53,344 nucleotides of DNA, taken from positions 1-53,344 of the forward strand of contig JARGFJ010000014.1 in the NCBI GenBank assembly GCA_029210875.1, given 5' to 3'. A program made the translations under genes and the position numbers. The notes under the pieces were generated by a model that did no database searches, was not told the DNA's origin, and saw nothing but the letters and a program-made list of their open reading frames with translations. The stretch comes from Gammaproteobacteria bacterium. Lineage in GTDB: Bacteria; Pseudomonadota; Gammaproteobacteria; Nitrosococcales; Methylophagaceae. This document shows positions 7,559-38,079 of this stretch, in pieces (the stretch's first letter is position 1; every line of letters begins with the position of its first letter).

Positions 7559-7818
7559 GCTTGTTGAATAAGGCTCGAATATATGCCCGTGCTCAATGAA
7601 TTTGCATAAAAGCTTGATTATTTCATTCGAACTATATCACTCAACTTTTTGTATCCATAGTTCACTGGAGAAAAAGAGCTGTTATTCGAGACGTATTGCC
7701 CAACTTGTCCTAAGTGATACCAACCATCATCTTCAACAGTTTGCTCAACAGCAGTTCTAAGTAGTTTTACAAGCGCAGCATCTTTTTTTCTTTTTCGATA
7801 ATTTATTCAACCCTTGCC
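7558..7818. repeat. imperfect inverted repeats resembling IS903-type ends, bracketing a gene relic
   Basis: GGCTTGTTGAATAA at 7558-7571, overlapping the last base of the dapB stop, is matched in inverted orientation at 7803-7818. On the minus strand the latter reads GGCAAGGGTTGAATAA. The shared core GTTGAATAA, with GGC at the outer edge, resembles the terminal inverted repeat of IS903 (family knowledge, from memory). No transposase frame lies between. I read it as a decayed IS or MITE-like remnant, but a 9-bp core leaves room for chance. Confidence 0.35.
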
Positions 7819-20429: not shown

Positions 20430-20474
20430 AAGTAGTGATTGAGAGATTGCATTTAACTGGAATTGAGGCAATAC

Positions 20475-22096: not shown

Positions 22097-22684
22097 ATGG
22101 AATTCCCTTCACTAAGTGAGTTGGATTTTAACGAAAGTGGCGAATGGCCAGCTTTAATTAAAACAATAGCAATTGTGTTGCTGTGTCTGGTGATTTGGGG
22201 CGCTGGCTACTATTTTGTGATAAGTGACAAAAAGATAGAACTGGAAAGTCTGGAACAAAAAGAAATACAGTTAAAAAGCAGTTTTGAAATAAAACAAGCC
22301 AAGGCAGCAAATCTGGATGCGTATAAAGAGCAAATGGAAGAGATGAAAGTGGTATTTTCTGGGATGTTGCAACAGTTACCTCGTAAAAGTGAGGTGGCAG
22401 ATCTTTTAATTGATATATCTCGCACCGGATTAGTGAATGGTTTGGAGTTTGAATTATTTAAGCCTGAACAAGAGCGCCCGATAGACTTCTATGCAGAACT
22501 ACCAATATCAATGAATGTAAGTGGTACATACCATCAATTTGGCGAATTTGTCAGCGCTATTGCCGCCTTGCCAAGGATTGTTACGTTGCATAATTTTACA
22601 TTAACGCCACAGGGTGATTCAGGTAAGATATCAATGGTGATTACTGCAAAAACATACCGTTATTTTGATGAACAAGAACAATAG
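22097..22684 (+). CDS. pilO: type IV pilus assembly protein PilO
   Basis: Partner of PilN in the inner-membrane alignment complex. The 195-residue protein has one membrane helix near residues 22-43 (IAIVLLCLVIWGAGYYFVI), a coiled coil (LESLEQKEIQLKSSFEIKQ) and a periplasmic domain containing LPRKSEVADLLIDISRTG. The start follows the pilN stop without a gap. Confidence 0.97.
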   Translation: MEFPSLSELDFNESGEWPALIKTIAIVLLCLVIWGAGYYFVISDKKIELESLEQKEIQLKSSFEIKQAKAANLDAYKEQMEEMKVVFSGMLQQLPRKSEVADLLIDISRTGLVNGLEFELFKPEQERPIDFYAELPISMNVSGTYHQFGEFVSAIAALPRIVTLHNFTLTPQGDSGKISMVITAKTYRYFDEQEQ

Positions 22685-22729
22685 AGCTCCTAATTTAAAG
22701 ACACCAATGAAAACTAAAGGTAATACTGT

Positions 22730-23260
22730 ATGACAAATTTAATTAAGGCTTCACTGTTGATAATAGTGAGCTTGCTAGTTGGTTGTCAGCAAGAAAAACA
22801 AGATTTGGCGTCATATGTTGCGAGTGTAAAAGCCCAACAACGACCTGATATTGAACCTATGCCTGTTATGAAGGCATATGAAAAATTTAGCTATTCTGCA
22901 TCGGATTTGCGTAGCCCATTTGTCAAAACAGTGGTTGAAGCGCCAACTGACGAACAAACGACTCCCATCGTTGATAATGGCATTCATCCAGATAAAAACA
23001 GATTAAAAGAAGCATTAGAGTCTTATTCATTATCAGAGCTCCAATTTGTTGGAACTTTGGGTAGAGATGTTTCATGGGCGTTAATAAGAGCATCTGATGG
23101 CGTAATACATCGCGTCAAGGTAGGTAATTATATGGGACAAAATCATGGGCAGATCCTTTCAGTGACGGAGTCTGAATTAACATTAAAAGAAATTGTTTCT
23201 GATGGACGTGGGGCTTATATAGAACGTGAATCATCCCTGACGATAGCTGATGTGAACTAA
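22730..23260 (+). CDS. pilP: type IV pilus lipoprotein PilP
   Basis: Lipoprotein bridging PilN/PilO to the secretin PilQ. The 176-residue protein has a lipobox LLVGC near residue 19, an extended disordered periplasmic stretch, and the C-terminal beta-domain with LSELQFVGTLGRDVSWALIR and VGNYMGQNHGQI, typical of the PilQ-N0-binding fold. It is separated from pilO by 45 bp. Confidence 0.96.
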   Translation: MTNLIKASLLIIVSLLVGCQQEKQDLASYVASVKAQQRPDIEPMPVMKAYEKFSYSASDLRSPFVKTVVEAPTDEQTTPIVDNGIHPDKNRLKEALESYSLSELQFVGTLGRDVSWALIRASDGVIHRVKVGNYMGQNHGQILSVTESELTLKEIVSDGRGAYIERESSLTIADVN

Positions 23261-23276
23261 AGGCAAATAAATAGTT

Positions 23277-25418
23277 ATGACTAACAAAGATGGAATTACA
23301 ATGAAAAATCAACCGTTAGCTGCAGTAAAATATTACATCGCAACGTTGTCAGTTAGACATGTGTCATTGATTATAGCTTTATTCGGACTGCAACTACTGA
23401 CATTGGCCTCTGTTAAGGCTGCAGATCTTCAATCTTTAGGGTATTCATCGCTTCCAGGCGATAAGACCCAGCTAATTTTGACATTTTCAGAACCAGTTGA
23501 AGCCCCAAATAGTTTTGCAATAGATGATCCTGCTCGAGTTGTAGTTGATTTTCCTGGTGTTTCAAACAAATTAGACAAAAAAACACAGCAGATAAATGTT
23601 GGAATGACTCGAAGTGTTTCTGCAGTTGAAGCGGGTGATCGAACACGAGTCGTTGTTAATTTAGTGTCCAAGTCTTCATACACAATCAGTCATGAAGCTA
23701 ATGTTGTTATGATTACTATTAGTGGTGGTGTAACGGCCAGCAATACCGATAAAAACACAGCAAATAATCACGTTACAGATGTTGATTTTAGAAGAGGCAA
23801 AGAAGGTGAAGCTCAACTTACAATAACGCTAAGTAATGACAGTATGGTTTTGGATGTACAACAGCAACGTGAAAATATCATTGTTGATTTGATCGATGTT
23901 ACATTGCCTGAAAAATTTCGTCGCCGTTTGGATGTGATTGATTTTGCTACACCTGTCCAGATCATCGATAGTGAATCAAAAGGCAGTAATACACGATTAA
24001 CGTTATCAACAGATGGAAAGTTCGAACATTTGGCTTATCAATCTGAAAATACAGTAGTTATTGAGGTTAAACCGATATCAAAAGAGGTTCAGGAAGCAAG
24101 TAAAAAAGATCAATTCGGATACAAAGGTGAGAAATTATCTTTGAATTTCCAAAATATTGAAGTGAGAGCTGTGTTGCAATTGTTAGCAGATTTCACCAAA
24201 TTAAACCTGGTTACAAGTGATACTGTTCAGGGTAGCGTAACACTACGTTTGCAGAATGTGCCATGGGATCAAGCCTTGGATATCATTCTAAAAACCAAAG
24301 GGTTGGGGATGCGACAAAATGGTAACGTCATGCTGATCGCGCCGGCTGCTGAACTCGCAGCCCAAGAAAAACAAGAGTTAGAAGCAACAAAACAACTCAA
24401 GGAGTTGGAACCACTTTACTCTGAAGTATTTGAAATTAACTTTGCCAAAGCAACTGACTTAGAAAAAATACTAAATAAAAATACGGGTTCTACTAGTTCT
24501 AATTCATCAAACAATGAAGAAGAAGGTTTTATTTCAGAGAGAGGAAGTGTCACAGTCGATCTTCGCACAAATTCATTATTGATACGTGATACCGCAAAAC
24601 AATTAGATGAAGTTAGAGCGTTGATTGCCCAGTTAGACAAACCTGTTCGCCAGGTGTTGATAGAGTCACGTATTGTTATTGCAAATGATAACTTTGCGAA
24701 AGAGTTAGGGGTTAGATTTGGTGCCTCCAAATCTAAAACATCAAACAATAAATTTGTTACAAATGCGGCTACGTCAGGAACGTTAAATGGTACTACCCAG
24801 ATACTTAATGGCGATACTCTGGAACAAGCAGATCGATTAAATGTTGATTTACCTGTTACTAATCCTGCTGGTTCGATTGCCTTAGCGTTGGCAAAACTTC
24901 CTTTAGGCGCGGTATTAGAACTTGAGCTGTCAGCAATGCAAGAAGAAAATGAAGGTGAAATTGTATCCAGTCCGAGGATAATTACATCAAATCAACAACA
25001 AGCAGTTATAGAGCAAGGTACAGAAATACCTTTTCAGGAAGCAAGTTCCAGTGGCGCAACATCAGTGTCATTTAAATCAGCGACACTTAAACTGGGTGTA
25101 ACACCTCAAATTACACCCGATGATCACATCATTATGGATCTGGAAGTCACAAAGGATGAAGTTGGCACCATTTTTAACGGTGTGCCTAGTATCGATACAC
25201 GATCTGTTCAAACACAAGTCCTGGTTGATAATGGTGAAACGGTTGTTTTAGGCGGTATTTATGAACAAAGAACGATCAATGGTTCAACGCGTGTTCCATT
25301 TTTCGGTGACTTACCTTATGTCGGCTTTTTGTTCAAAACAACCAATAAAACAAATGATAAGACTGAGTTACTCGTTTTCGTCACACCGAAGATTATCAAA
25401 GACAACATTAGTTTTTAG
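23277..25418 (+). CDS. pilQ: type IV pilus secretin PilQ
   Basis: Outer-membrane multimeric channel through which the pilus passes. The 713-residue protein has a signal peptide (cleavage likely after SVKA), two peptidoglycan-binding AMIN domains (about residues 50-260), a secretin N0/STN domain (LSLNFQNIEVRAVLQLLADF), an N1 domain, and the C-terminal secretin core with EGEIVSSPRIITSNQQQAVIEQG and VLGGIYEQ. It may begin at 23301 (MKNQPLAAV), which gives a cleaner signal peptide. A 13-bp palindrome spans the stop codon and a strong terminator follows. Confidence 0.97.
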   Translation: MTNKDGITMKNQPLAAVKYYIATLSVRHVSLIIALFGLQLLTLASVKAADLQSLGYSSLPGDKTQLILTFSEPVEAPNSFAIDDPARVVVDFPGVSNKLDKKTQQINVGMTRSVSAVEAGDRTRVVVNLVSKSSYTISHEANVVMITISGGVTASNTDKNTANNHVTDVDFRRGKEGEAQLTITLSNDSMVLDVQQQRENIIVDLIDVTLPEKFRRRLDVIDFATPVQIIDSESKGSNTRLTLSTDGKFEHLAYQSENTVVIEVKPISKEVQEASKKDQFGYKGEKLSLNFQNIEVRAVLQLLADFTKLNLVTSDTVQGSVTLRLQNVPWDQALDIILKTKGLGMRQNGNVMLIAPAAELAAQEKQELEATKQLKELEPLYSEVFEINFAKATDLEKILNKNTGSTSSNSSNNEEEGFISERGSVTVDLRTNSLLIRDTAKQLDEVRALIAQLDKPVRQVLIESRIVIANDNFAKELGVRFGASKSKTSNNKFVTNAATSGTLNGTTQILNGDTLEQADRLNVDLPVTNPAGSIALALAKLPLGAVLELELSAMQEENEGEIVSSPRIITSNQQQAVIEQGTEIPFQEASSSGATSVSFKSATLKLGVTPQITPDDHIIMDLEVTKDEVGTIFNGVPSIDTRSVQTQVLVDNGETVVLGGIYEQRTINGSTRVPFFGDLPYVGFLFKTTNKTNDKTELLVFVTPKIIKDNISF

Positions 25419-25433
25419 TTAAAACTAATGTTG
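25403..25433. repeat. 13-bp perfect inverted repeat across the pilQ stop codon
   Basis: CAACATTAGTTTT (25403-25415) is exactly matched by AAAACTAATGTTG (25421-25433), with a 5-base loop that contains the pilQ stop. It lies just upstream of the GC-rich terminator and has no T-tract of its own. It may protect the mRNA 3' end or be a second termination signal. Confidence 0.7.
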
Positions 25434-25444
25434 AAAGACAGACT

Positions 25445-25472
25445 AAGCCGGATCCCATGATCCGGCTTTTTT
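25445..25472 (+). terminator. intrinsic terminator after pilQ
   Basis: AAGCCGGATC (25445-25454) pairs perfectly with GATCCGGCTT (25459-25468) around a CCAT loop, and the right arm continues into TTTTTT. It separates pilMNOPQ from aroK-aroB-damX. Confidence 0.9.
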
Positions 25473-25509
25473 ATCGCAACATTAATCAGAGAAAAGAGAT
25501 AATTATCAC

Positions 25510-26031
25510 GTGATATCGGGCAATATTTTTTTAGTTGGACCAATGGGCGCTGGCAAGTCGACCGTTGGTAAACAACTGGCCAAATCACTAGGTCGAGATT
25601 TTTATGACAGTGATAAAGAATTGGAAAAGCGAACTGGCGTTTCAATTTCATGGATATTTGAGATGGAAGGTGAGCAAGGGTTTCGGATCCGCGAACAGAA
25701 AATTATTGATGAGTTAACAGGACTCAAAGATATTGTTTTGGCCACAGGTGGTGGCGTCGTTCTTGCCGAAGAAAATCGCCGTATATTACGTTCGCGTGGC
25801 CATGTTGTTTATTTGTCAGCATCGGTAGAACAATTATTGAAAAGAACGGCCAAGGATAAATCCAGACCTTTATTACAAACAGATAATCCCAGGCAACGTA
25901 TTAAAGAAATTATCTCTCAGCGTGATCCCCTGTATCGAGATGTTGCAGATATTGAGCTTAGGACTGGCGATCAATCAATTCAACATGTAGTATCCGGCTT
26001 AATCAAGCAATTAGAACAACTAGGTCAATAA
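25510..26031 (+). CDS. aroK: shikimate kinase
   Basis: Phosphorylates shikimate at the 3-OH in chorismate synthesis. The 173-residue NMP-kinase-like protein has Walker [12 protein letters not shown], the shikimate-binding [13 protein letters not shown] and GGGVVL segments, and the lid region with [13 protein letters not shown]. It uses a GTG start at 25510. It sits downstream of the pilQ terminator and 10 bp before aroB, a standard pairing next to pil genes in gammaproteobacteria. Its product chorismate also feeds PabB encoded nearby. Confidence 0.97.
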
Positions 26032-26041
26032 GACAAAAATA

Positions 26042-27127
26042 ATGAATACATTACAGGTTTCACTGGCAGATCGCAGTTACCCTATCTACATTGGTGATGC
26101 GCTGCTTTCAGATGGAGAATTACTGTGTCAGCACATTAAGAGTAAAGAAGTGCTTGTTGTAACCAATACAACTATCGCACCCCTTTATTTAGAAACTGTA
26201 TTAGCTAATTTGACAGAGTATCGTTGCGATTCAGTGATATTGCCCGATGGTGAACAATTTAAAACGCTTGATGTTCTAAATCAAATTTTTGATGCATTAT
26301 TACAAAACCATTTTTCACGACAAGTTACATTGATTGCACTTGGAGGTGGAGTGATTGGAGACATGACTGGCTTTGCAGCCGCATGCTATCAACGTGGTGT
26401 TCCTTTTATACAGATCCCAACAACATTACTTTCACAAGTAGATTCTTCTGTCGGTGGCAAAACTGCTGTTAATCATCCTCTTGGCAAAAATATGATTGGT
26501 GCATTTTACCAACCACAATGTGTGATTGCTGACACCGCAACCTTAAATACACTTGAACAACGCCAGTTATCATCGGGTTTAGCGGAAGTTATTAAATACG
26601 GCATTATTAACGATCCTGAGTTCTTTAGCTGGCTTGAAAAAAATATTGATGACTTAGTGGCTAGAAAAACATCTGCCTTAATAGAAGCCGTTGAACGCTC
26701 ATGCCAAGACAAGGCCGATATTGTGGCAAGCGATGAGTTAGAGCATGGTGTCAGAGCCTTATTAAATTTAGGTCATACCTTTGGGCATGCGATTGAAACA
26801 GGTATGGGTTACGGTAGTTGGCTACACGGTGAGGCAATTGCGGTCGGTATGATTATGGCTGCTGAATTATCATGTCGGATGGGATGGGTAAGTCGTGAGC
26901 AAGTCGATCGAATTACTCGGTTGATCCAGGCTGCTGGCTTACCTGATAAATCTCCAACAACTATGTCAACGCAGCAATTTATGGATTTGATGGCAGTAGA
27001 TAAGAAAGTACAAGATGGTCGTATTCGCCTTGTCTTACTTACAGATATTGGTAAAGCGATTGTCACTGATGATTATGATGCTGAGGCATTACAGGTTACT
27101 TTAGACTACTTCCAATCTCAGAGCTGA
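26042..27127 (+). CDS. aroB: 3-dehydroquinate synthase
   Basis: NAD- and metal-dependent cyclisation of DAHP to 3-dehydroquinate, the second step of the shikimate pathway. The 361-residue protein shows the NAD-binding [19 protein letters not shown], the [19 protein letters not shown] signature, and metal-ligand histidines in [10 protein letters not shown] and [11 protein letters not shown]. Length equals that of E. coli AroB (362). Confidence 0.98.
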
Positions 27128-27136
27128 GGCTATGCG

Positions 27137-28597
27137 ATGAGTGAATTATCGACATCTTTTGCTGAACCAGCCTATGTTTCCAGGCTAGCACTAAGGTGTG
27201 CCCCCTTTAGCAACAGTATCGATAATACGCTTTACTATAGTGGTGGACAATTAGAGCATCGACTTAATCTGCTACTTCACCTTGTTAGGGCCAGTAATAA
27301 AATTGGTCTAATAATAGCCGAACATGGTCTTGGTAAAACAACATTACTCACACAGTTAGCATCACGGGCTGGTGACGAATTACGGTTATGTATGATTGAT
27401 GCCAAACAGCATCAAACGATAGAAACTATATTAATCAAATGCCTGCAAGATCTTGGCGTTGAACAGAATGATCTTGATGCAAATGTAAGTCAGACTGACA
27501 ATTTTCGTAATCGACTTAAACAACTACGAAAACTTAATATTCGCCCAATTCTCGTGCTTGATGATGCACAGACTTTATCTGCCTCGATCATCGCTGAAAT
27601 ATCACACTGGCTTAGCTGGCAGGACAACGATCAATTTCTGCTACAAGCCATTATTGCAACAACGCATCCATTGCCACTGTCAGAGTTAGTTCTGGCACGA
27701 ATTCAGCACATTGATCTGCCCGCATTAGCTCAAGATGAGCTTGCATCTTATTTAACAGACCGGATGTCAAAAGCTGGCTACATCGGTGATTTTATTTTCA
27801 CTGATAAAGAGTTGAATAAATTCTACAAACGCTCTCGTGGCAACCCTGCTTTAGTAAATCAATTGGCGCATCAAAAACTATTAGGAATAAAATCTGGATT
27901 AACAGATATAAAGGCTTTTAACGTAAGTTCGTTATTGAATTTTCGCTGGCTTGGTGTCGCTACTGTTATTGCATTTTTAGTGTTATTACTTGTTTACCAA
28001 GATGACGTTAATACCTTTTTTAAAATTGATACAACTAGCCAAATCAATAATGATATTACGCTGGTTCAACCAGAAGACGATGTTGCCACCATTAATGTTG
28101 AACACGATAAAGTAATGTCACATCAGGACGCTGTTCGACAAGAATTGGTCGAGCTTGTCGAACAATTACCACCGCCAGAAGATGACATTACACCGGTAGA
28201 GAATATAGAGAAAAATGATAAGCCTATAATCGAAAACATTCCTAATGCTGAACCGACTCCGCCATTGGAGGTTGACGTTGCAAAGGTGCCTTTACCAGAA
28301 CTGTATCGAGAACCATGGGTATTGCAACAACAGGGTACGGATTATACGTTTCAATTAATGGGATCATGGCAACAGCAAGAAGTATATGACTTCGTCAATA
28401 AATATGCACTTACTGGCGATGTTGCCATGTTGGAAAGCATGCGAAATGGTCGGCCTTGGTATGCACTTATTTATGGTGTGTTTAATAATAAAGATGAAGC
28501 CTTGGCAGCAAGTAAACAATGGCCAGCGCCATTAAATACCTTACCATCCTGGTTACGACGTTTTGACAGTGTACAAAAGCAGATTAAAGGTTCTTAG
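27137..28597 (+). CDS. damX: DamX-like AAA and SPOR-domain protein
   Basis: A 486-residue membrane protein at the usual position after aroB. The N-terminal cytoplasmic part is an ExeA-type ATPase domain (Walker A AEHGLGKTTLL near residue 60; Walker B PILVLDDAQ). One membrane helix lies near residues 272-292 (LGVATVIAFLVLLLVY), followed by an acidic, proline-containing periplasmic linker and a C-terminal SPOR domain (YTFQLMGSWQQQEVYDFV) expected to bind denuded peptidoglycan at the septum. It likely acts in cell division. Its last 14 bp overlap the convergent decarboxylase gene. Confidence 0.85.
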   Translation: MSELSTSFAEPAYVSRLALRCAPFSNSIDNTLYYSGGQLEHRLNLLLHLVRASNKIGLIIAEHGLGKTTLLTQLASRAGDELRLCMIDAKQHQTIETILIKCLQDLGVEQNDLDANVSQTDNFRNRLKQLRKLNIRPILVLDDAQTLSASIIAEISHWLSWQDNDQFLLQAIIATTHPLPLSELVLARIQHIDLPALAQDELASYLTDRMSKAGYIGDFIFTDKELNKFYKRSRGNPALVNQLAHQKLLGIKSGLTDIKAFNVSSLLNFRWLGVATVIAFLVLLLVYQDDVNTFFKIDTTSQINNDITLVQPEDDVATINVEHDKVMSHQDAVRQELVELVEQLPPPEDDITPVENIEKNDKPIIENIPNAEPTPPLEVDVAKVPLPELYREPWVLQQQGTDYTFQLMGSWQQQEVYDFVNKYALTGDVAMLESMRNGRPWYALIYGVFNNKDEALAASKQWPAPLNTLPSWLRRFDSVQKQIKGS

Positions 28598-29780
28598 CAA
28601 TTTCATTCATTAAAGATTCTGCCTGAACATAGTGATGGGAAAACACGGTTCTATACACTGGCTTCCCGGCAATTTTAGCTTTTGAAATCATGCCTTGATC
28701 AACTAGCGTATTTAAGGCTGACATTGGTTTTAGGCTAAAACACACAATGCCCGTCTCTGATCGATACAGTTCAAACTCCATTGTGACAGCAAGCATGTCA
28801 GAAAAAGCATTAGCTTGTTCCAAACGTTGTTTAAGCCGCGAACTTAGTGCATCAACACCATTGATGATCAGATCAAACCACAAGGCTAAAAATAGCTCGC
28901 CACCATGTGAGCCAACCAAGCTGTTCAACGGCGTAGTTTCAAGATAATTAGTGTCAAAAGACAGCATTGGTTCAATATTTTTTTTGTAGAGTAAGACACC
29001 TGCAGGTTTAGGTTGTTGCCAGCCTTTATGAGGATCGAAACAGATCGAATCAGCTTGCCCACACAACGCAAATAAAGACTGATATTCAGGTAAGATTGCT
29101 AAGGCACCGCCCCATGCCGCGTCAATATGACACCAAGCATTGACACGTTTAGCAATGTCACAACATGCTGCAATTGGATCGATTACACCCGCAGCTGACG
29201 TGCCTAGCGTTGCAATAATCGCGAGTGGTGTTTGGATACGACAGGCTGCTTCCAAAGCACTTGGGATGAGTTGATCATGATCATTTGTTTCGATCAGTCT
29301 AAGTTCAAGATCGAGTATTTGGCAGGCCTTAGCAATTGAATAATGTGCTGCTGTTGATGCATAAACGATACGTGATGTTGTTGAGTGCTTTTTGGCTTGC
29401 CACAGTGCTTCTAAATTACCATAAGTACTGCCAGAGGTGAAATGACCATAGGGCTGATGAAATAACTGGCTAAACCATGATAATAGCTGTTTCTCGATAG
29501 TGGCAAGGACAGGATAGAGCGATGCTGATAACAGGTTACCATTGTGTAAGCTTGCCACGAGTTGACCAAACATACTGGCAGCAGAGATTGGTGCAGTCAT
29601 GTGTGCTGCCCAGGTTTGACTATGATGTTTGTTACCTTCAGATACGACACTGTTGATTAGATTTTCAAGCGACTCTGAATCTATGGGCTGATCATGTATA
29701 GCTATATTAAATGGTTGTGCTTGAACGATATTATTCAAACTACGCTCTAGTTCAGAGATAACAGTAAAGAATGGGTTCAT
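28584..29780 (-). CDS. mfnA: PLP-dependent decarboxylase, MfnA-like (putative tyrosine decarboxylase)
   Basis: A 398-residue group II PLP decarboxylase. Visible features are the cofactor-contact HIDAAWGGA, the PLP-lysine motif FDPHKGWQQPKPAGVLL, and TSGSTYGNLEAL for phosphate binding. In methanogens MfnA makes tyramine, the first building block of methanofuran. Here the gene overlaps the amino-acid kinase upstream by 4 bp and closes a run containing MfnD-, MfnF- and MfnE-like proteins, so a role in the furan cofactor is the best reading. Related enzymes decarboxylate aspartate or glutamate, so specificity is inferred from context. The symbol follows the archaeal name. Confidence 0.75.
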   Translation of the reverse strand: MNPFFTVISELERSLNNIVQAQPFNIAIHDQPIDSESLENLINSVVSEGNKHHSQTWAAHMTAPISAASMFGQLVASLHNGNLLSASLYPVLATIEKQLLSWFSQLFHQPYGHFTSGSTYGNLEALWQAKKHSTTSRIVYASTAAHYSIAKACQILDLELRLIETNDHDQLIPSALEAACRIQTPLAIIATLGTSAAGVIDPIAACCDIAKRVNAWCHIDAAWGGALAILPEYQSLFALCGQADSICFDPHKGWQQPKPAGVLLYKKNIEPMLSFDTNYLETTPLNSLVGSHGGELFLALWFDLIINGVDALSSRLKQRLEQANAFSDMLAVTMEFELYRSETGIVCFSLKPMSALNTLVDQGMISKAKIAGKPVYRTVFSHHYVQAESLMNEIAKNL

Positions 29781-30376
29781 GACAAATCGATTCTGGTCGT
29801 GTTGCTGGTGTGGAGTGACTGTTCAAGCAGATGATGATTTGCTGCATTTATCAGCTGAAGTTTTACTGGTGATGTTTGGTAAAGTTGCTCAAAGCCAGCA
29901 TCAATAATACCGTTTTTAGTTAAGAATGGAATGCTGACATCATTTGGAATATCACACGATTTAACTAATATCAGTTGTTCAGCATTGCGTTTGTTTGCTA
30001 ACCACAATGCCAAGCTATCAGAAGTAATATCCCAACTGTGGACAAGTTCCGTTTCGGCTAATAATGTCTCGTCAGGTAGCCATATAGAAAGAGAATTTGC
30101 TGCTATTGGTGAATCTGTATATCGGAAACTCTGACAATCAGATGAAATTCCGGTTAGTAACAGACCAAATTGGGCCATCGCCAGTAGTGCCATATGATGC
30201 GCTGTACTATCATCAAAGTGATAATTATCTTGAGCTTTGCGCACATTGTCAGCAAATGGGCCGCCACCAGGCACGATAATAATCGAACTTTGTTTTGCCA
30301 AGTTGGTTAATGCCTTTAGCCAGTGTTTTAGGTGTGAACTTTGATAAAGGCTGCCACCCAATTTGACGATGATCAT
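29777..30376 (-). CDS. amino-acid kinase family protein, MfnE-like
   Basis: A 199-residue kinase-fold protein with the nucleotide-binding start MIIVKLGGSLYQS and IIIVPGGGPFADNVRKA. The family includes archaeal MfnE, which phosphorylates 5-(aminomethyl)-3-furanmethanol phosphate during methanofuran synthesis, and the Orf9-type proteins of methylotrophs. It lies between pabB (1 bp upstream) and the MfnA-like decarboxylase (4-bp overlap). Assignment to the cofactor pathway rests on family and context together. Confidence 0.75.
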   Translation of the reverse strand: MIIVKLGGSLYQSSHLKHWLKALTNLAKQSSIIIVPGGGPFADNVRKAQDNYHFDDSTAHHMALLAMAQFGLLLTGISSDCQSFRYTDSPIAANSLSIWLPDETLLAETELVHSWDITSDSLALWLANKRNAEQLILVKSCDIPNDVSIPFLTKNGIIDAGFEQLYQTSPVKLQLINAANHHLLEQSLHTSNTTRIDLS

Positions 30377-30377
30377 A

Positions 30378-31769
30378 TCAACGTAATTGTTTAATTAATG
30401 AGAACATCGCTGCGGCTTTGTCATGTACTTCCTGATATTCTGCATCTGCAGTTGAATCAGATACAATACCACCACCAGCCCAAAACCTAAGTCGATTATC
30501 ACTATAAACAAGTGTGCGAATTAAAATATTGCTGTCCATTTCACCATCAAAACCAATATAGGCAATGGAACCACAATAGGCACCACGCCGATCAGGTTCT
30601 AGTTGTTCAATAATTTCCATGGCGCGTAATTTGGGGGCACCGGTAATTGAGCCACCCGGAAAACAGGCACGAAGTAGTGAAACAGCATCCTGATCAGATG
30701 CTAAGGTGCCAGTAATGGTACTCACTAAATGATGAACAGTAGCAAAAGATTCAAGTGCAAAGGGTTTGGGCACTTTGATGCTACCCGGTGTGCAAACTTT
30801 ACCTAAATCATTACGCAGTAAATCAACAATCATTAAGTTTTCAGCACGATCTTTAATACTATTAACTAACTCATCAGCAAGCGCTTTATCTTGCTCGGGA
30901 TTGTTTAATGCTCGGCGGCGAGTTCCTTTTATAGGTTTTGTTTCAACATAATTATCTTTAACTTGTAACAGGCGTTCGGGCGATGAGCTTAATAAGGTCA
31001 CACCTGCAAAGGATAAAAAGGCTGAAAAGGGTGCTGCGTTAGCCTGACGTAACTGTTTATAGGCAAACCAGGGATCGCCTTGCGCTGAAATTTCAAAACG
31101 TTTAGCAAGATTGACCTGATAGCAATCGCCTTCATGAATGTAATCTTGGATTTTATCGAAGGCACGTTGATAATTATGTCGGTTTAGATTACATCTGAGA
31201 TCACCACTGACGGTAAATTTTTCTTCATCATAAGACCGTGTTTTTGTGAGTCGGTCTATCAGTACTTGCCATTGTTTATGAGTATGTTCATCTAAGCCAA
31301 AGCTACCAAGCCAGCAGCGTTGTTCCTGATGATCGACCGTAACAGCCCAATCATAGATCGCAACGGCCATATCTGGGATCTGTTCATGGTTTCGTGCGAT
31401 AACGGGCACGGTTTCAATATAGCGACCTAAATCATATGAGAAGTAACCTATTGCACCACCATTAAAAGGGTGATCGCTCGGTGTTTGGCGTGGATAGTGT
31501 GCAAGCTGTTGGCGTAACACTAGGAAAGGATCATCTTGAGATAGCGTCTGCTCGCCAAGTCGATTAGTAATAACCGTACCGAGTTCAGTTGTAGTTATGT
31601 TAACTAATGGATCGGCAGCAATTATGTCGTAACGACCTTGTTGATTTTTTTTAGTGTGGCTACTATCAAGAAAGACCGGCCAAGGCATGTTACGTAATAG
31701 TTCAAAATAATGACTACTGTCGGCTAAATAGGGCAGTTCATAATAGAGTGGTGGCTGTGATGATGGCAT
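30378..31769 (-). CDS. pabB: aminodeoxychorismate synthase component I
   Basis: Converts chorismate to 4-amino-4-deoxychorismate, leading to p-aminobenzoate. The 463-residue protein belongs to the chorismate-utilising family (GGSITGAPKLRAMEIIEQLEP; AYCGSIAYIGFDG). The segment VETKPIKGTRRR contains PIKGT, whose Lys is the PabB nucleophile; anthranilate synthase has PIAGT here, so trpE is unlikely. It sits inside the C1-cofactor run, fitting supply of p-aminobenzoate for tetrahydromethanopterin as well as folate. The glutaminase PabA is not in the window. Confidence 0.92.
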   Translation of the reverse strand: MPSSQPPLYYELPYLADSSHYFELLRNMPWPVFLDSSHTKKNQQGRYDIIAADPLVNITTTELGTVITNRLGEQTLSQDDPFLVLRQQLAHYPRQTPSDHPFNGGAIGYFSYDLGRYIETVPVIARNHEQIPDMAVAIYDWAVTVDHQEQRCWLGSFGLDEHTHKQWQVLIDRLTKTRSYDEEKFTVSGDLRCNLNRHNYQRAFDKIQDYIHEGDCYQVNLAKRFEISAQGDPWFAYKQLRQANAAPFSAFLSFAGVTLLSSSPERLLQVKDNYVETKPIKGTRRRALNNPEQDKALADELVNSIKDRAENLMIVDLLRNDLGKVCTPGSIKVPKPFALESFATVHHLVSTITGTLASDQDAVSLLRACFPGGSITGAPKLRAMEIIEQLEPDRRGAYCGSIAYIGFDGEMDSNILIRTLVYSDNRLRFWAGGGIVSDSTADAEYQEVHDKAAAMFSLIKQLR

Positions 31770-31778
31770 GGCAGTATT

Positions 31779-32822
31779 TTACGTTAACTCTTGCCATGCT
31801 AAAAGCGCAACTGCTACCGCTGGGGCATGATCTGCGGCAGCTGTTAACTCTGGTTGGCAAAGTGTTGCAAAATCAATGTAGTCATAACCCAGTTGCGCTG
31901 CACATTGCTTAATAATAAAGCGACCAATACCCGCGCCAACAATAGTGTGATTTTGTTGGTGTGGGTGACCAGATAATACTTGCAAGATAGCGTTAGTAAT
32001 TTGGTGGATCTGTTGTTGAGCAAACCATTTAGCCAAGAGTTGCCACGAGGCTGACTCAACATCATGAGCATCAGTACCTAATAAACGGGCTAACCGGCAC
32101 ACGCAATTAGCCTTATTCCATGGCTTGTCATCTGCTGAATTGTCTAAAATCTCACTCGGATTTAATTGATCTAATATCATCCAGACATCACCAGTGGTAG
32201 CAAATACTTCCGCAGCAAGGCTCATTAGTTGGCCATTAAAGGGCGCAACGGACGTTAACGCGATTAGAGGTGTTCGTATCGTACCTGTATAAAGTAATTC
32301 ACGGCTAATTTGGCGATGATGATCATCATAACCTGAGGCAACAACCTGATTTGAGATAATGGGGATGATGTCACAGGTAGTACTACCAAGATCGATAAAG
32401 ACACTATTTGTAATCTTGGATGCAACGAAGTTAGCACTTGCTTGCCAATTGCGTGATGCTACTTGATACCATTCTTGTTTAGCATCATCAAAAGATAACC
32501 AACCTTGTTGACCAGCGTAGACTTGACAGTGTTGTTGTGGAATTAAACGACTAACACAATCCAAAATCTCGGCAACACCGGTTTCACGATTTGCAAATAG
32601 ATCAACTAATTCTCCAGTCATAGTAATGGCTGTTAGATCATTGTGATTATTTAATTCAGTTTGTACTGCTTTAATTGCATTCTCTAATTGATCGAGCCCT
32701 TGCCATAAAGGACACAAAAATTGTTTGACTTCTATTAGCTGGCCTTCATGATCGCAACGCGCGACTTTTAGGTGAGCACCACCAATATCCCAGCCCGACA
32801 CATAGGATGACTGTTTGCTCAT
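31779..32822 (-). CDS. H4MPT-linked C1 transfer pathway protein, MfnF-like (ASKHA fold)
   Basis: A 347-residue protein of the hydantoinase/oxoprolinase-related family found with tetrahydromethanopterin genes. ASKHA nucleotide-binding motifs are visible: YVSGWDIGGAHLKVA at the N-terminus, VFIDLGSTTCDIIPI in the middle, and TIVGAGIGRFI near the C-terminus. Archaeal MfnF joins the aminomethylfuran to tyramine-glutamate. The start overlaps the end of the ATP-grasp gene by 4 bp, so the two are translationally coupled. The function is inferred from family and neighbours. Confidence 0.75.
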   Translation of the reverse strand: MSKQSSYVSGWDIGGAHLKVARCDHEGQLIEVKQFLCPLWQGLDQLENAIKAVQTELNNHNDLTAITMTGELVDLFANRETGVAEILDCVSRLIPQQHCQVYAGQQGWLSFDDAKQEWYQVASRNWQASANFVASKITNSVFIDLGSTTCDIIPIISNQVVASGYDDHHRQISRELLYTGTIRTPLIALTSVAPFNGQLMSLAAEVFATTGDVWMILDQLNPSEILDNSADDKPWNKANCVCRLARLLGTDAHDVESASWQLLAKWFAQQQIHQITNAILQVLSGHPHQQNHTIVGAGIGRFIIKQCAAQLGYDYIDFATLCQPELTAAADHAPAVAVALLAWQELT

Positions 32823-33841
32823 AATTGAATATGAACCTTATTTCTATGAGTAATAGCTGATGGTGGCATTGAACCAGTATTTTGCATAGTAAAAAAACGT
32901 TCCATCGGATTTAGTTGGAGAGACGCTCTCAAACCCGTATAAGATGTGGTTAAACGAGGGTTGATATCCACAACCACGAGCTGATCCGGCGTCAGTATAA
33001 TATCAATGCCAATAAAGCCAGATAAGCCTTCTATGGCACAATGTATCGATGATGCTAGCTGATAGGCCTGTTCAAGTGACAAGGTTGTACTATCTATCTC
33101 ATTGACGATGCAGCCATGAAACTCAAGTTTATTATTGATCGAGATCAATTGTTGGTTTATCGCAAGCACTTCTATCTCATCATTTGATAGTAATACAGAT
33201 AAGCTAGCTGCAATACCCTTAACATAGGCTTGTACCAGATAAGATTGGCGTTGCGCTACCGATAATGAGCTTAAATAGTATTCAAGTTCCTGAATGGAAT
33301 TAAACAGGAAGGTATCAATGCAGCCTGCACCATCAATCGGCTTAACAATATAACCAGATTCTGAGATAAAGCGGTGTTGAGGCCATTCTTTAGCGATACA
33401 GCTATATGTTGTGGCAATGTTATTTGCTGTTAATATTTGTTCACATGTGTATTTATTGCTTGTAAGCCTAATCGCTTCTGGAGAACAACCTAAAATGACT
33501 TTTCCTGTTTGCAAAGCCTGTTGTTGAAGTTGGGCTAATATATCGTCTGTTTCAGGTGCGATAATAAAAATAGTATCGGCATTATCTAGACATTGTTGCC
33601 ATAATCGACTGTAATCACTGTATGTAAAAATGAGATGGCGGCAGTGACGCTCAGGTTTTATCAGCTGGTCATGATTTGATAGTCTTGCATCACATAAAGT
33701 GATCAGCTCTATGTCAGTTAACTCGTGACAATCAGTCAAAACAGCAGACAACATTTCAGTACCTTCAAGCGCGAGACTTGTCGGTAACTCCTGCTCGGCA
33801 AAAGCACCACTGGTAATGTGTTCGTAAGCAAATAATTTCAT
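32819..33841 (-). CDS. ATP-grasp ligase, MfnD-like (putative tyramine/tyrosine-glutamate ligase)
   Basis: A 340-residue ATP-grasp protein. The N-terminus (MKLFAYEHITSGAFAEQELP...SLALEGTEML) resembles archaeal MfnD proteins; the ATP-grasp core shows the Lys in YIVKPIDGAGCIDTFLF and the metal-binding VVVDINPRLTTSYTGLR. MfnD forms a gamma-glutamyl bond to tyramine. It is the first gene of the minus-strand run ligase-MfnF-pabB-MfnE-MfnA. No good ribosome-binding site precedes the ATG, and only 23 bp separate it from the divergent HisA-like gene, so its promoter must lie within that gene. Confidence 0.7.
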   Translation of the reverse strand: MKLFAYEHITSGAFAEQELPTSLALEGTEMLSAVLTDCHELTDIELITLCDARLSNHDQLIKPERHCRHLIFTYSDYSRLWQQCLDNADTIFIIAPETDDILAQLQQQALQTGKVILGCSPEAIRLTSNKYTCEQILTANNIATTYSCIAKEWPQHRFISESGYIVKPIDGAGCIDTFLFNSIQELEYYLSSLSVAQRQSYLVQAYVKGIAASLSVLLSNDEIEVLAINQQLISINNKLEFHGCIVNEIDSTTLSLEQAYQLASSIHCAIEGLSGFIGIDIILTPDQLVVVDINPRLTTSYTGLRASLQLNPMERFFTMQNTGSMPPSAITHRNKVHIQL

Positions 33842-33864: not shown

Positions 33865-34527
33865 GTGGAAATTATACCGGTGATTGATTTAATGGGGGGA
33901 ATAGTTGTGCGAGCTGGTGGCGGCAATCGCACACAGTATCCGCCTTTATCATCATTAATAACGCAATATATCAATCCAATTGACGTTATTGCAGATATGT
34001 TGGCTCTGTATAATTTCAAAAAGATATATATCGCAGATCTCGATGCGATATTTCATCAGCAACCGAGGTGGGATATTTATCAGGCGTTACGATCCCGTTT
34101 TCCTGCGGTTACTTTTTTGATAGATGCTGGCATTCAAGATCAAAATCGTCTGTCTCAAATTACTGAACTGGGTGTTATTCCTATCATTGGGAGTGAGACG
34201 CTATCAGACCTGTCATTATTGAAAGATCTCAAACGAGGCATATTATCACTCGATTTTCAAAAAGGAACTTTGTTGGGGGATCAAACTTTGTTAGCACATC
34301 CTGAGATTTGGCCAGACACAGTTATCGCAATGAATATTGATTATATTGGCGCTAACAAAGGCGTGGATCTTGCGCTGTTGGATACAATTAGAAACTTAAG
34401 ATCTGACTGTGAGCTTATTGCTGCCGGGGGCGTGAGAAATCAGCAGGATATCGAACTATTAAAACAAATGGGAATATCGGGAGCGCTTGTTGCCAGTGCG
34501 TTACATGACAAAAGATTAAGCTTTTAA
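33865..34527 (+). CDS. HisA/HisF-related TIM-barrel protein of C1-cofactor clusters
   Basis: A 220-residue half-barrel-duplicated protein with MEIIPVIDLMGGIVVRA at the start, ILSLDFQKG in the middle and IAAGGVRNQQDIELLKQMG at the phosphate-binding end. The two catalytic Asp positions of HisA appear retained. Related proteins of unknown function occur with tetrahydromethanopterin genes in methanogens and methylotrophs. There are no his genes nearby, so a histidine role is unlikely. It uses a GTG start with AAAGGA seven bases upstream, and ends at a bidirectional terminator shared with fae. Confidence 0.75.
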   Translation: MEIIPVIDLMGGIVVRAGGGNRTQYPPLSSLITQYINPIDVIADMLALYNFKKIYIADLDAIFHQQPRWDIYQALRSRFPAVTFLIDAGIQDQNRLSQITELGVIPIIGSETLSDLSLLKDLKRGILSLDFQKGTLLGDQTLLAHPEIWPDTVIAMNIDYIGANKGVDLALLDTIRNLRSDCELIAAGGVRNQQDIELLKQMGISGALVASALHDKRLSF

Positions 34528-34531
34528 AATA

Positions 34532-34567
34532 AAACATCACTCCTCCATTGCTGGAGGAGTGATGTTT
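34532..34567. terminator. bidirectional terminator between the HisA-like gene and fae
   Basis: A 16-bp perfect stem (AAACATCACTCCTCCA at 34532-34547 with its complement at 34552-34567) encloses a TTGC loop. The left flank is A-rich, giving a T-tract for minus-strand fae transcripts; for the plus strand the T-run is shorter. It separates two convergent genes. Confidence 0.88.
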
Positions 34568-34580: not shown

Positions 34581-35102
34581 TTACTCAGCTGCCGCAAAAG
34601 GATGCGAGCTAGTTTTGTATTGTGCTACTACATCAGCTGCTTTTGGTTCGCGAGCTACTGCACGTTTGATTGATTCTTTAGTTGCACGGTAGTTCCAATC
34701 CTGGATTTTTGCATCGCTGTCAGCTGTTGGTGAAATGAATACACCAACACAGATGAAGCAATCATCAGCTTCAGCAGCCGGGATTGTGCCATCTTCAACA
34801 CATTCAGCAACAGCGACAGCTACGCCACGTTGTGCTGGGCCAAACATTTGAACAGCTTGTTTCATGTTTTTGATTGTAACTTTGTTGAACATAACTGTTG
34901 CAGGTTTAACCATAAGGTTAGGAGCAACTACAGCCAAAAGGCCGTTAACGCCTTGTTTTTGGTCTGTTAGAGTACGGCAGAAAGCATCTTCTGCAGCTGA
35001 GCCACGTGGGCCCATGATTAAGTCAATGTGAGCAACGTTGTCTAAGTCACCATCTTCAATGACTAAAGATTCACCTACAAGTACGCGATCGATAACTGGC
35101 AT
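34581..35102 (-). CDS. fae: formaldehyde-activating enzyme
   Basis: Condenses formaldehyde with tetrahydromethanopterin to methylene-H4MPT, the entry point of the archaeal-type formaldehyde oxidation pathway. The 173-residue protein matches Fae throughout: [13 protein letters not shown] with the proposed catalytic His, [48 protein letters not shown] and the C-terminal HPFA. It is a stand-alone unit with AGGAC before the ATG and a strong terminator behind, consistent with high, independent expression. Confidence 0.98.
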
Positions 35103-35248: not shown

Positions 35249-36097
35249 TTAAGAAAGCGCCTGACGGAATGCGTGAACTAACAGCGTTGCAGCGGTTAAA
35301 TCAGCGGTTGTTCCTGGGTTTATCGCTTCCTTTTTTAATTCTATATCCCATTTGATAATATCGCGTTCTATCCGGTTTATCCCTTTGAATTGCAAGGGTT
35401 CTCGTAGTAATTGTTTCGCAAATTTCATCACTTCATGGGCGCGTTCAAGACCATATTTACGATATACAAGAGAGTCAGGAACGTTACTTAGAAGGTTAAG
35501 ATACGCGAAAGTGGTGGCCCATTCAATACTTTCTCCACAATTTAATGATTCTGTCAACTTCACCAGCCCAATTGAATATATTTCATGGTAATTATTCAGG
35601 TATTGTGCGGCAATAGCATCGTGATTCTGAGCAATTGCCATTGCTTGTCTGAGGGTGACGGTTGGTGTGTTATTAATGTCTTGTTCATCACTGTGGCCTA
35701 AGCCACCAGCCTGAGCTGATCGAATGGCCTGATAGGTATTTATTGCATCTTCAATCGTTAAGTTGTTGAGGACATGATCGAGTTTCTGCGGCAATTGCTC
35801 AAAAGAATCACAGCTTTGAATGGCGCGGCATAAAGGCGCGAATAATAGCACTATGCCAAGATTAGTGTTGCAATCGACAACGGTTCGCGTGGCAGTAATT
35901 GCGTCCAGGATCATCTGACCAACATTACTATTGGGCGCCGATAAAGCAGGTGCAATAGCATGGGCACTATTGATGAAGTCTTGTAGCTGCATATTATGTG
36001 CATCACTAAAACAATTTACATTACCCGGTTTAGGCGCTGCAACTTCATGCTCACAAGCCCAAATGACACAGTCATGAATTTGTTCAGTTGAGAGCAT
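35249..36097 (-). CDS. triphosphoribosyl-dephospho-CoA synthase-like protein of C1 clusters
   Basis: A 282-residue CitG/MdcB-family protein. Family motifs are VAAPKPGNVNCFSDAHNM near the N-terminus, GGLGHSDEQDI in the middle and AINPGTTADLTAATLL near the C-terminus. True CitG moves a triphosphoribosyl group from ATP to dephospho-CoA for citrate lyase, but no citrate or malonate lyase genes are here. Members of this subgroup travel with mch and fae in methylotrophs (as I recall, the orf7 position of the Methylobacterium mch cluster) and are thought to act in cofactor synthesis. It overlaps the RimK-like gene by 14 bp. Confidence 0.78.
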   Translation of the reverse strand: MLSTEQIHDCVIWACEHEVAAPKPGNVNCFSDAHNMQLQDFINSAHAIAPALSAPNSNVGQMILDAITATRTVVDCNTNLGIVLLFAPLCRAIQSCDSFEQLPQKLDHVLNNLTIEDAINTYQAIRSAQAGGLGHSDEQDINNTPTVTLRQAMAIAQNHDAIAAQYLNNYHEIYSIGLVKLTESLNCGESIEWATTFAYLNLLSNVPDSLVYRKYGLERAHEVMKFAKQLLREPLQFKGINRIERDIIKWDIELKKEAINPGTTADLTAATLLVHAFRQALS

Positions 36098-37043
36098 GTT
36101 CAGATGTATCGATCGGTGCCGCGTTAATTTTATTAACTAATGCTTGCGCCAAGGTGCCTGCGACATCAATTCCCGTAGCCTGATAGAGTCCTTTCCAGGC
36201 TGGAACACTATTCACCTCTAGCACGGTATAGTGACCATCCTGATGTCTGATTAGATCAACACCGGCATAATCAGCTTCTACTGCTTTGGTGGCCGAGATC
36301 GCAAGCTGTGTCATTTCATCGGTAATGGTTGTGGCGGAACACATTGCACCTTGAGCGAAATTAGTTATCCAATGATTTGAATGACGTGACATTGCTGCAC
36401 AGACTTTGCCTTCAATGACCATTAATCGCCAGTCTTGCCATTGTTTCTGTTCATGAGGAGCAACATATTCTTGAAGATATAAGGCATCTCCAATGGCATC
36501 ATAGCGATCAAATTCTTTGATTGTGCTGACTTTAGCCAGTCCCTTGCCTTGGCAACCAAATAAAGGTTTTAAAATTAAGGTTTTATTCTGTCTAAATTGC
36601 TCAATAGCGATATCACGCGCAACCGCTCTATTTTCACAGGCCCAAGTGGTTGGTGTCTTTATTCCAGCAAGGTGAAGTCGAAGTGACGTGCGCGCTTTAT
36701 CGACAGTGTGTTCTATGGCCTTGGCTGGATTAAATACCGGTACATTCAGTTCGGCAAGTGTATGTAAGACATCCATACGAAGGGTGATTTGTTCTAGCGT
36801 GCCGGGAGCAATGCCGCGTACCAGGGCTGCGGCAGGTAGCTTATTTTCAAAGCCGGGAATATGTAGTCCTGTTGGATGTGTTAGATCGATGCAGCAGTCA
36901 GCAAGATCACTCAACACAACGGAGATGTTGTATTTGGCAAAGGCATCAACCAATTGCTGACTATGCCAGCCATGTGTGTCATTAAATATTACGATTTTAG
37001 GTGAAGGCATAATAGTCGATTTGGTGTTAGGGAGTAGTGACAT
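36084..37043 (-). CDS. RimK/MptN-like ATP-grasp ligase of C1 clusters
   Basis: A 319-residue RimK-type ligase (ATP-dependent amino-acid ligase). Visible are TLILKPLFGCQGKGLAKV for ATP binding, LQEYVAPHEQKQWQDWRLMVI and the metal-binding YTVLEVNSVPAWKGLYQ. Archaeal MptN adds glutamate to tetrahydromethanopterin; other members glutamylate different cofactors. The ATG at 37043 has GGGGAG at optimal spacing; a GTG one codon earlier is also in frame, and a later ATG (37010) lacks a ribosome-binding site. The site and start lie inside an 11-bp inverted repeat. It is downstream of mch and upstream of the CitG-like gene. Confidence 0.78.
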   Translation of the reverse strand: MSLLPNTKSTIMPSPKIVIFNDTHGWHSQQLVDAFAKYNISVVLSDLADCCIDLTHPTGLHIPGFENKLPAAALVRGIAPGTLEQITLRMDVLHTLAELNVPVFNPAKAIEHTVDKARTSLRLHLAGIKTPTTWACENRAVARDIAIEQFRQNKTLILKPLFGCQGKGLAKVSTIKEFDRYDAIGDALYLQEYVAPHEQKQWQDWRLMVIEGKVCAAMSRHSNHWITNFAQGAMCSATTITDEMTQLAISATKAVEADYAGVDLIRHQDGHYTVLEVNSVPAWKGLYQATGIDVAGTLAQALVNKINAAPIDTSEHALN

Positions 37044-37053
37044 CACTACTCCC
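37030..37053 (-). promoter_or_regulatory. inverted repeat that can hide the start site of the RimK-like gene
   Basis: GGGAGTAGTGA (37030-37040) and TCACTACTCCC (37043-37053) are perfect complements separated by 2 bases. In the mRNA the arm containing GGGGAG and the start codon would be paired. There is no T-tract after it, so it is not a classical terminator for mch. It may set translation of the downstream gene or block exonuclease decay of the mch message. Confidence 0.6.
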
Positions 37054-37064: not shown

Positions 37065-38048
37065 TTATAGTCCGAACGACAATGTGAGTAATTCTTGATT
37101 CAAGGTTCCAGCTGTGAAGCTTTTACCAGTATTGGTATTGGTCACAATAACTTTTGCTGGGCTAAACAACATCGGATCAATTTTAAAGAAGTCGTATTCA
37201 TAAGACTTAAAAATCTCACCAAATGGACGACCATAATCTGATGATGAATTACTCGGCATTTTTTCAGCCAGGTCTTTGGCTTCATCGTCAGTTGCATCAA
37301 CAAATAAATGCACCATACCACCATACAAAATCGCATCATTGGTGCGACCCATACCTGTCATAAAGTCACCACCTGGTGGTGCTACAGGTGTTACACCAAA
37401 ACCATCAACAATTTTTTCCATAGGAAAATGAACGGTGTGGGCTTTGTGCATGGCAACTTCAAGTACACGAATTGCAATTTGCATCACACCAGCAAGGCTT
37501 GATGTCGGTGTCAAAATGAACGTTAAGTTTTCAGGTTTAATGCCACAGTTGTTTGCGACTTTTTCTGCCACTTCAATCGGTGGAAATGAATCAACTTCTA
37601 ATACGATGCAGGTTGATTCTGCTTCGTCTTTGTAAGCAAATTCTTTTAATACTTCTTCACGACCAGCCAAGGCGCGACCTGGGCCTGAACCTAAAGCAAA
37701 GAATTTTGTATTTTCGTCTTTATGAGAAAGACTCCAGCCAGCATATTGACTGCCTAGACAGCTTAAAACGGGGGTTTTAGCATGCACATTGACCGACCAG
37801 GGCCAGTTGTCAAAACCACTATTTGTGCCCAGCGTAGCCGTGCCTAAACCGCCCATACAAATTTCACCGATACGGCGTCCGGCCTCAAGGCCACCGACAC
37901 AGTTAATGCCTGCGTCTACAATACGTGTACCGTTTTCAAGGGTACTGATTTCGAGTTGGAGTGCTTGTGCGTCAGCAACAAGGCTCTCTACTAAAGGTTG
38001 GCATGCAGCGTTAACGCTGGTCCAATTGGCAGAAATGTTACTGCTCAT
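37065..38048 (-). CDS. mch: methenyltetrahydromethanopterin cyclohydrolase
   Basis: Hydrolyses methenyl-H4MPT to formyl-H4MPT in formaldehyde oxidation. I start at ATG 38048 (MSSNISANWTSVN, with GGGAAC eight bases upstream), giving 327 residues; the frame stays open eight codons further. Typical Mch segments include NCVGGLEAGRRIGEICMGGLG, WSVNVHAKTPVLSCLGSQYAGW, VTPVAPPGGDFMTGMGRTND and RPFGEIFKSYEYDFFKIDP. It heads the minus-strand run mch-RimK-like-CitG-like, followed by fae. Confidence 0.97.
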   Translation of the reverse strand: MSSNISANWTSVNAACQPLVESLVADAQALQLEISTLENGTRIVDAGINCVGGLEAGRRIGEICMGGLGTATLGTNSGFDNWPWSVNVHAKTPVLSCLGSQYAGWSLSHKDENTKFFALGSGPGRALAGREEVLKEFAYKDEAESTCIVLEVDSFPPIEVAEKVANNCGIKPENLTFILTPTSSLAGVMQIAIRVLEVAMHKAHTVHFPMEKIVDGFGVTPVAPPGGDFMTGMGRTNDAILYGGMVHLFVDATDDEAKDLAEKMPSNSSSDYGRPFGEIFKSYEYDFFKIDPMLFSPAKVIVTNTNTGKSFTAGTLNQELLTLSFGL

Positions 38049-38079
38049 GGTAAAGTTCCCGTGTGTAATCAAATAGATA

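Follow-up and report, generated by a model that had tools for sequence, protein, structure and literature searches.

A group II decarboxylase at the end of a methylofuran gene run in a Methylophaga-like gammaproteobacterium: a candidate source of tyramine

The gene run and its decarboxylase

We analyzed a 53,344-nucleotide stretch of contig DNA (the window), in which positions 28584 to 33841 of the minus strand hold five open reading frames (ORFs) that, by their coordinates and by profile searches, encode MfnD-, MfnF-, PabB-, and MfnE-like proteins and a pyridoxal 5'-phosphate (PLP) decarboxylase of family PF00282 (Table 1). A previous reading of the sequence alone had described this run as tightly packed, with 4-bp overlaps at two junctions, and our analysis bears this out: mfnD and mfnF overlap at 32819-32822, the mfnE stop codon overlaps the decarboxylase start codon, and the gaps before pabB and mfnE are 9 and 1 nt. 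The overlap at the decarboxylase start suggests translational coupling. We think it likely, from genomic context, that the last gene encodes a lineage-specific tyrosine decarboxylase that feeds MfnD, so that the host's family would make tyramine-methylofuran.

Table 1. Features of the gene run and its neighbors in the window
Feature	Position	Strand	Basis
MfnD-like ATP-grasp ligase, 340 aa	32819-33841	-	best NCBIfam match MfnD_Meth, 99.8 bits (cut-off 400)
MfnF-like / Orf9 protein, 347 aa	31779-32822	-	TIGR03123, 335.6 bits (above cut-off 244.1)
PabB-like aminodeoxychorismate synthase component I, 463 aa	30378-31769	-	TIGR00553 pabB, 381.3 bits (above cut-off 328.4)
MfnE-like kinase, AA_kinase fold, 199 aa	29777-30376	-	MfnE, 92.9 bits (cut-off 300)
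Group II PLP decarboxylase, 398 aa, proposed methylofuran tyrosine decarboxylase (MfnA-like in role)	28584-29780	-	PF00282, 136 bits (cut-off 27)
ATGA overlap of mfnE stop and decarboxylase start, 4 bp	29777-29780	-	read from sequence
Orf17-type HisA/HisF-like protein, divergent from mfnD	33865-34527	+	profile matches
Formaldehyde-activating enzyme Fae	34581-35102	-	profile matches
CitG-like protein	35249-36097	-	profile match
MyfB/MptN-like RimK-type glutamate ligase	36084-37046	-	profile matches; MyfB-MptN likeness per PMC8141765
Methenyl-tetrahydromethanopterin cyclohydrolase Mch	37065-38072	-	profile matches

The decarboxylase belongs to the group II PLP enzymes by its PF00282 score and by a fold match, and its translation carries the motifs HIDAAWGGA and FDPHKGW, as had been noted from the sequence. 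Residues H146, D220, K252, Y279, and R377 align with H132, D206, K245, Y273, and R371 of MfnA from M. jannaschii, and they are kept in all 29 family sequences (L012, absent from alignment A1, is among the 29 family rows of this count and of the tree described below). We take K252, D220, H146, and Y279 to be the PLP lysine, the aspartate, the stacking histidine, and the loop tyrosine, respectively. Two of the aligned MfnA residues, K245 and R371, appear as mutated residues in titles of PDB entries, and a short loop and a PxP motif after the catalytic lysine are common to the family proteins and MfnA. In plant and animal relatives, exchange of the catalytic-loop tyrosine for phenylalanine yields aldehyde synthases (PMC11308512), and we infer that Y279 is that tyrosine.

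The MfnA label of the sequence-only reading is too specific for this enzyme. Against NCBIfam models, the protein scored 115.4 bits on the MfnA equivalog TIGR03812, below its cut-off of 299.4, and 111.8 bits on histidine decarboxylase, 102.5 on diaminobutyrate decarboxylase, and 98.6 on the PanP equivalog TIGR03799, whose cut-off is 606.1. We dropped the attempt to read the substrate from homology, as the scores on the MfnA, histidine, diaminobutyrate, and aspartate models span 17 bits. The predicted structure (mean predicted local distance difference test score 78.9, falling under 50 in stretches that include residues 1-32, 51-61, and 274-293) matches group II structures, the best with a Z score of 37.3 and a root-mean-square deviation (rmsd) of 3.5 over 376 aligned residues. 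The MfnA structure matches with Z 34.7 and rmsd 3.1 over 354 residues, within 3 Z units of the top and at rank 33 among the 50 entries listed, and MfnA was not among the best 50 Foldseek rows. MfnA is one of many group II matches and not the best of them, and the structure comparison separates no candidates.

Conservation in the host family and beyond

The nearest named relatives of the host are gammaproteobacterial metagenome-assembled genomes, several of them labelled Methylophaga or Piscirickettsiaceae. By these names we take the host to be Methylophaga-like and its family to be that of Methylophaga (Methylophagaceae in the Genome Taxonomy Database). The five-gene order is the same in all 19 named related loci, whose decarboxylases are 46-94% identical to that of the window, and the run is therefore more than a chance arrangement. 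The closest relative is isolate Kmv26 (L003, 94% identity); between its gene and that of the window the nonsynonymous and synonymous divergences are 0.028 and 0.218 (dN/dS about 0.13), and 54 of the 76 changes fall at third positions, a sequence pattern that indicates purifying selection.

We then compared 57 genomes of the host's family. Of these, 53 have PF00282 and 52 match MfnD strongly; at E values up to 0.001 the MfnD count rises to 55, three of the matches being weak. Both were present in 50 genomes, and in 49 of these they lie on the same contig and strand with 3.06-3.41 kb between match edges, the exception being G011, where decarboxylase and mfnD are on different contigs. The 4-bp overlap of mfnE and decarboxylase is kept in 29 of 36 related loci, with the decarboxylase start set mechanically as the first in-frame start at most 45 nt before the mfnE stop; the other seven have spacings of -16, -1, 6, 6, 6, 36, and 132 nt, the last being L012, which lacks its N-terminus and was counted as non-overlapping. 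Since L009 and L060 are identical, the 36 loci and the 29 sequences are not all independent.

Seven genomes do not show the pair. G003 (1.1 Mb, 100% complete) and G006 (86% complete) have neither decarboxylase nor mfnD, G006 showing only a weak MfnD match; this joint absence supports a link between the two genes, and G003 suggests that the methylofuran pathway has been lost there. Contig ends cut inside the run in G024, G032, G039, and G051. In G042 (1.1 Mb, 68% complete), a 4.4-kb contig (L048, G042:C75; noted stretch 3246-4376) carries mfnD-mfnF-pabB-mfnE and then, about 110 bp on, aroB, with neither decarboxylase nor damX at the locus. Either the decarboxylase is truly absent from G042 or this contig is misassembled; a natural loss is possible, and it may have left tyrosine-type methylofuran in that organism.

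Outside the family, we assembled 59 genomes with a TIGR03123 (MfnF) match of at least 197 bits by searching 398 genomes sampled from the phylum and 369 from the class (19 + 49 matches, minus five family rows [G000 twice, G021, G027, and G049] and four weak ones [G426, G539, G790, and G795]). The Genome Taxonomy Database's class Gammaproteobacteria includes the betaproteobacteria, so the class sample may include them too. MfnD was strong in 44 of the 59 genomes (45 at E values up to 0.001) and PF00282 was above its cut-off in 24, while 27 of the 44 with MfnD have no PF00282 match above the cut-off. None of the 59 has a PF00282 match within 5 kb of mfnF, as judged by comparing coordinates by eye, the nearest strong one being 8.5 kb away in G680. 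At least four contigs (G514, G518, G576, and G738) end less than 2.5 kb downstream of mfnF, where a gene beyond the end could escape; a PF00282 match lies on another contig in G514, G518, and G738, and in G576 only a weak one does. Given that no such gene was found near mfnF outside the family in these samples, the operon-end decarboxylase appears to be a feature of the Methylophaga-type family.

Twenty loci of the non-family set were inspected more closely. The order mfnD-mfnF-pabB-mfnE occurs in 12 of them and mfnE directly after mfnF in 3, and the remainder end early or have no mfnE match; tblastn (E up to 0.001) found no decarboxylase match in any of the 20, some of which end before or soon after mfnE. 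We also considered whether a substitute decarboxylase might follow mfnE. We listed the ORFs of the G042 locus and of 19 loci outside the family, and the 13 downstream ORFs inspected from 10 loci (phosphotransferase-like, chemotaxis receptor-like, pilus-assembly-like, mannose-phosphate guanylyltransferase-like, and others) held no shared candidate, as judged by eye. The closest non-family relative of the enzyme is a 406-aa protein of G658 (L067/L120, 8816-10036) that scored 207.6 bits, the next best non-family match in the class sample scoring 154 bits, and it is at most 33% identical to any family row. G658 belongs to the class sample, in which TIGR03123 matched 49 genomes but not this one, and the neighbors of this gene (epimerase-like, the end of a resistance-nodulation-division permease, DinB, and glyoxalase) point to no function.

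Tyrosine and the alternative substrates

Since the decarboxylase and the carrier operon are conserved together, the tyramine core that the sequence-only reading had proposed is the best prediction, although none of the sequence features tested indicates tyrosine specificity. In the pathway we propose, this compact enzyme would remove CO2 from free L-tyrosine to give tyramine, which MfnD would join to glutamate; MfnE, together with MfnB encoded elsewhere in the genome, would supply activated aminomethylfuran, MfnF would join the tyramine-glutamate part to it, and MyfA/MyfB-type ligases would add the glutamate tail, the roles of these other proteins being assigned by homology. Archaeal MfnD takes only tyramine in vitro (cited in PMC8141765), and a decarboxylase kept beside an MfnD homologue thus argues, by context, for tyrosine as the substrate. 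Because PLP decarboxylases require the alpha-amine of their substrate to be free, this one should on chemical grounds act before glutamate joins that amine, on free or conceivably on furan-bound tyrosine. The decarboxylase is real and conserved, it is probably functional, and there is a good chance that it works like MfnA.

That it is an MfnA orthologue is doubtful, given the profile cut-off and its position in a rapidly computed maximum-likelihood tree of 93 rows, one of them MfnA. From this tree we excluded L064, L075, L078, L098, L106, L120, and L126, which we regarded as duplicates of the window or of other rows. Family rows L062 and L063, the truncated L081, the weak L129 and L138, and 9 of the 19 named loci were also left out, whereas both L082 and L132, which are one protein, stayed in. 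The family enzymes form one clade of 29 rows (100 in the Shimodaira-Hasegawa-like approximate likelihood ratio test), and the next branches, L068 (85) and L067 (81), are not well supported. MfnA groups with two rows (support 97); the profile of one of them, L125, marks it as a glutamate decarboxylase. A forced clade with M. jannaschii MfnA was weakly rejected (approximately unbiased test, p-AU 0.028), and forced clades with PanP (0.372) and with L121, a protein resembling Mfla_2033 of a known tyramine-methylofuran producer (0.101), were not. Clustering with aspartate decarboxylases, the outcome that the sequence-only reading had set against its own proposal, was not seen in the tree, but the PanP test leaves that grouping unrejected, and a grouping with MfnA was not seen either. 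Because of long branches, MfnA's included, odd composition, and the single MfnA row, these p-AU values are weak evidence.

Several observations weigh against tyrosine as the substrate, in addition to the placement of the family enzyme outside MfnA and the lack of a specificity signal. In the PDB, even M. jannaschii MfnA bears the name L-tyrosine/L-aspartate decarboxylase. According to Hemmann et al. (PMC8141765), M. album has an MfnD paralogue and yet makes the tyrosine form, so MfnD alone does not fix the carrier type, and three tyramine producers are described there as having no MfnA homologue; taken together, neither mfnD nor mfnA tracks the type cleanly. The G042 operon without a decarboxylase suggests that the enzyme may be dispensable. 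Finally, the methylofuran cluster has aroK, aroB, or damX as neighbors in named family loci, and since these genes are also kept and synteny is generally high, the position in the operon weighs less than it might; the family's cases also trace to one gain and not to many.

The enzyme could instead act on aspartate, like PanP, or on another amino acid, making beta-alanine or another amine and simply being housed in the operon, which we consider unlikely. The unrejected PanP clade is compatible with such a role, as are the PanP, diaminobutyrate, and histidine decarboxylase scores so near to that of MfnA and the presence of a DAAWGG motif with its tryptophan in PanP row L100; the two PanP rows that we scored, however, reached 821 and 926 bits on TIGR03799, and the gene is kept beside mfnD in 49 of 50 genomes and overlaps mfnE by 4 bp in 29 of 36 loci. 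PanP replaces PanD in genomes that have no PanD. Here PanD is present in the host genome and in 55 of the 57 family genomes, including 52 of the 53 with the decarboxylase (it was not found in G032, 93% complete in about 350 contigs, or in G045, 55% complete), so no such replacement applies and aspartate decarboxylation for coenzyme A is an unlikely role. G003, without MfnD and decarboxylase, also keeps PanD.

Acting at another step of the same pathway, the enzyme might decarboxylate an aminomethylfuran-O-tyrosine core, with its free alpha-amine, after furan attachment. A myfA mutant showed a core without glutamate, and the authors leave open whether tyrosine or tyramine is joined to furan before glutamate (PMC8141765). 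The overlap of the decarboxylase gene with mfnE and not mfnD and the separation of the family clade from MfnA would fit this order of events, but the pathway drawn in that paper and the NCBIfam name of MfnF both place glutamate addition before the furan, and the furan-bound tyrosine substrate is hypothetical; we regard it as very unlikely. Highly improbable, too, is a version in which the family recruited its own group II decarboxylase, separately from MfnA and from the enzymes of other producers, to act on furan-bound tyrosine, with free tyramine no intermediate. Least probable of all, in our judgment, is that the decarboxylase is degenerate or accessory and plays no part in making the cofactor: the G042 operon and the low PF00282 score of the G033 copy (65.5 bits) could be read in that way, yet purifying selection is indicated between the window and L003, the catalytic residues are intact in every family sequence, the G033 copy (L043) included, and the gene is present nearly throughout the family.

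The proposed tyrosine decarboxylase would allow cofactor type to be predicted from genes in a methylotroph group for which we found no methylofuran report in the literature searched, and its physical coupling to the operon makes it well suited to tests of how bacteria come to use tyramine and not tyrosine. M. extorquens can incorporate tyramine that it takes up into its cofactor. The predicted cofactor variant is itself known, whereas the enzyme lineage, the mfnE overlap, and the confinement to the family in the samples searched are new.

The surrounding cluster and known methylofuran systems

Judged from their sequences, the genes around the run make up a bacterial "archaeal-like" tetrahydromethanopterin (H4MPT)/methylofuran formaldehyde oxidation cluster, of which the five-gene run would be the methylofuran-building part. 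The host genome contains homologues of MfnD/Orf1, MfnF/Orf9, MfnE/Orf21, MfnB/Orf22, Orf17, and MyfB, the set by which we recognize a methylofuran cluster; the MfnB homologue lies on another contig together with H4MPT-type genes (dihydropteroate synthase-like, AfpA/DmrA-like flavoprotein, and DUF447). The title of the TIGR03123 model is "probable H4MPT-linked C1 transfer pathway protein", the PabB-like product presumably makes p-aminobenzoate for H4MPT, and we take the CitG-like protein to be of the Orf7 type. At its 3' end, the decarboxylase gene overlaps the convergent damX (27137-28597, plus strand) by 14 bp.

Between the convergent fae and Orf17-type genes lies a 16-pair stem-loop (34532-34567) whose tail, on the minus strand, is rich in T; it stands after fae and is terminator-like in sequence. 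A scan for promoter-like sites found 12, below the shuffle mean of 19.5, and the promoter and terminator scan was not used as evidence. Farther away, 20463-28597 holds PilM and PilQ, with three ORFs without an NCBIfam match between them, followed by aroK, aroB, and the DamX-like gene, and 41819-47764 encodes a hybrid chemotaxis-type histidine kinase of 1981 aa (Hpt, HATPase, CheW, and response regulator).

Tyramine in a bacterial carrier, which the sequence-only reading had put forward as a second bacterial variant, is not new: Hemmann et al. (2021) described tyramine-methylofuran in six of nine strains (PMC8141765). Their paper draws an MfnA step into the pathway and names PF00282/MfnA candidates in three of the six producers, with none found in the other three, and shows that M. 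extorquens needs orf17 to make methylofuran. The name Methylophaga is absent from its main text, and among the open-licence PubMed Central papers listed for our queries we found no other description of this operon, as judged by titles and the starts of abstracts. One of the strains they tested, the methanotroph M. album, is a gammaproteobacterium. It had the tyrosine form, all Betaproteobacteria tested had the tyramine form, and Alphaproteobacteria had either (PMC8141765).

The producers with Mfla_2033, Snov_0063, and VAPA_RS28950 use the same pathway with a PF00282 protein as the proposed source of tyramine, and all three have an MfnD paralogue (PMC8141765). Mfla_2033 adjoins the mxa cluster (PMC8141765). 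The decarboxylase of the window, by contrast, is the last gene of the mfnD-mfnF-pabB-mfnE run. Among our loci, L121 (G416, 3.0 Mb, 6424-7956) is a PF00282 decarboxylase beside AAA/MoxR, DUF58, VWA, and Polyketide_cyc2 genes, a setting that fits the description of Mfla_2033. We assume these neighbors to be the genes that carry mxa names, and that L121 is Mfla_2033 itself is a guess. L121 is 26% identical to the window's decarboxylase and lies elsewhere in the tree, although a single clade was not rejected. Other methylofuran clusters of the class resemble the window in having Mch, MyfB, CitG, and Fae nearby, in 13 of the 20 loci inspected. Archaeal MfnA (M. jannaschii; PDB 3f9t, 6jy1, 6ldr, and 6lds) shares with the window's enzyme a similar length, the short loop after the lysine, the catalytic residues, and a DPHK...PxP motif, but the two are 28% identical over 237 columns, and other group II enzymes fit the predicted fold as well or better. 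With respect to the archaeal methanofuran pathway MfnA-F as a whole, the host has homologues of MfnD, MfnE, MfnF, and MfnB and differs in having a MyfB-type glutamate ligase gene in the same cluster.

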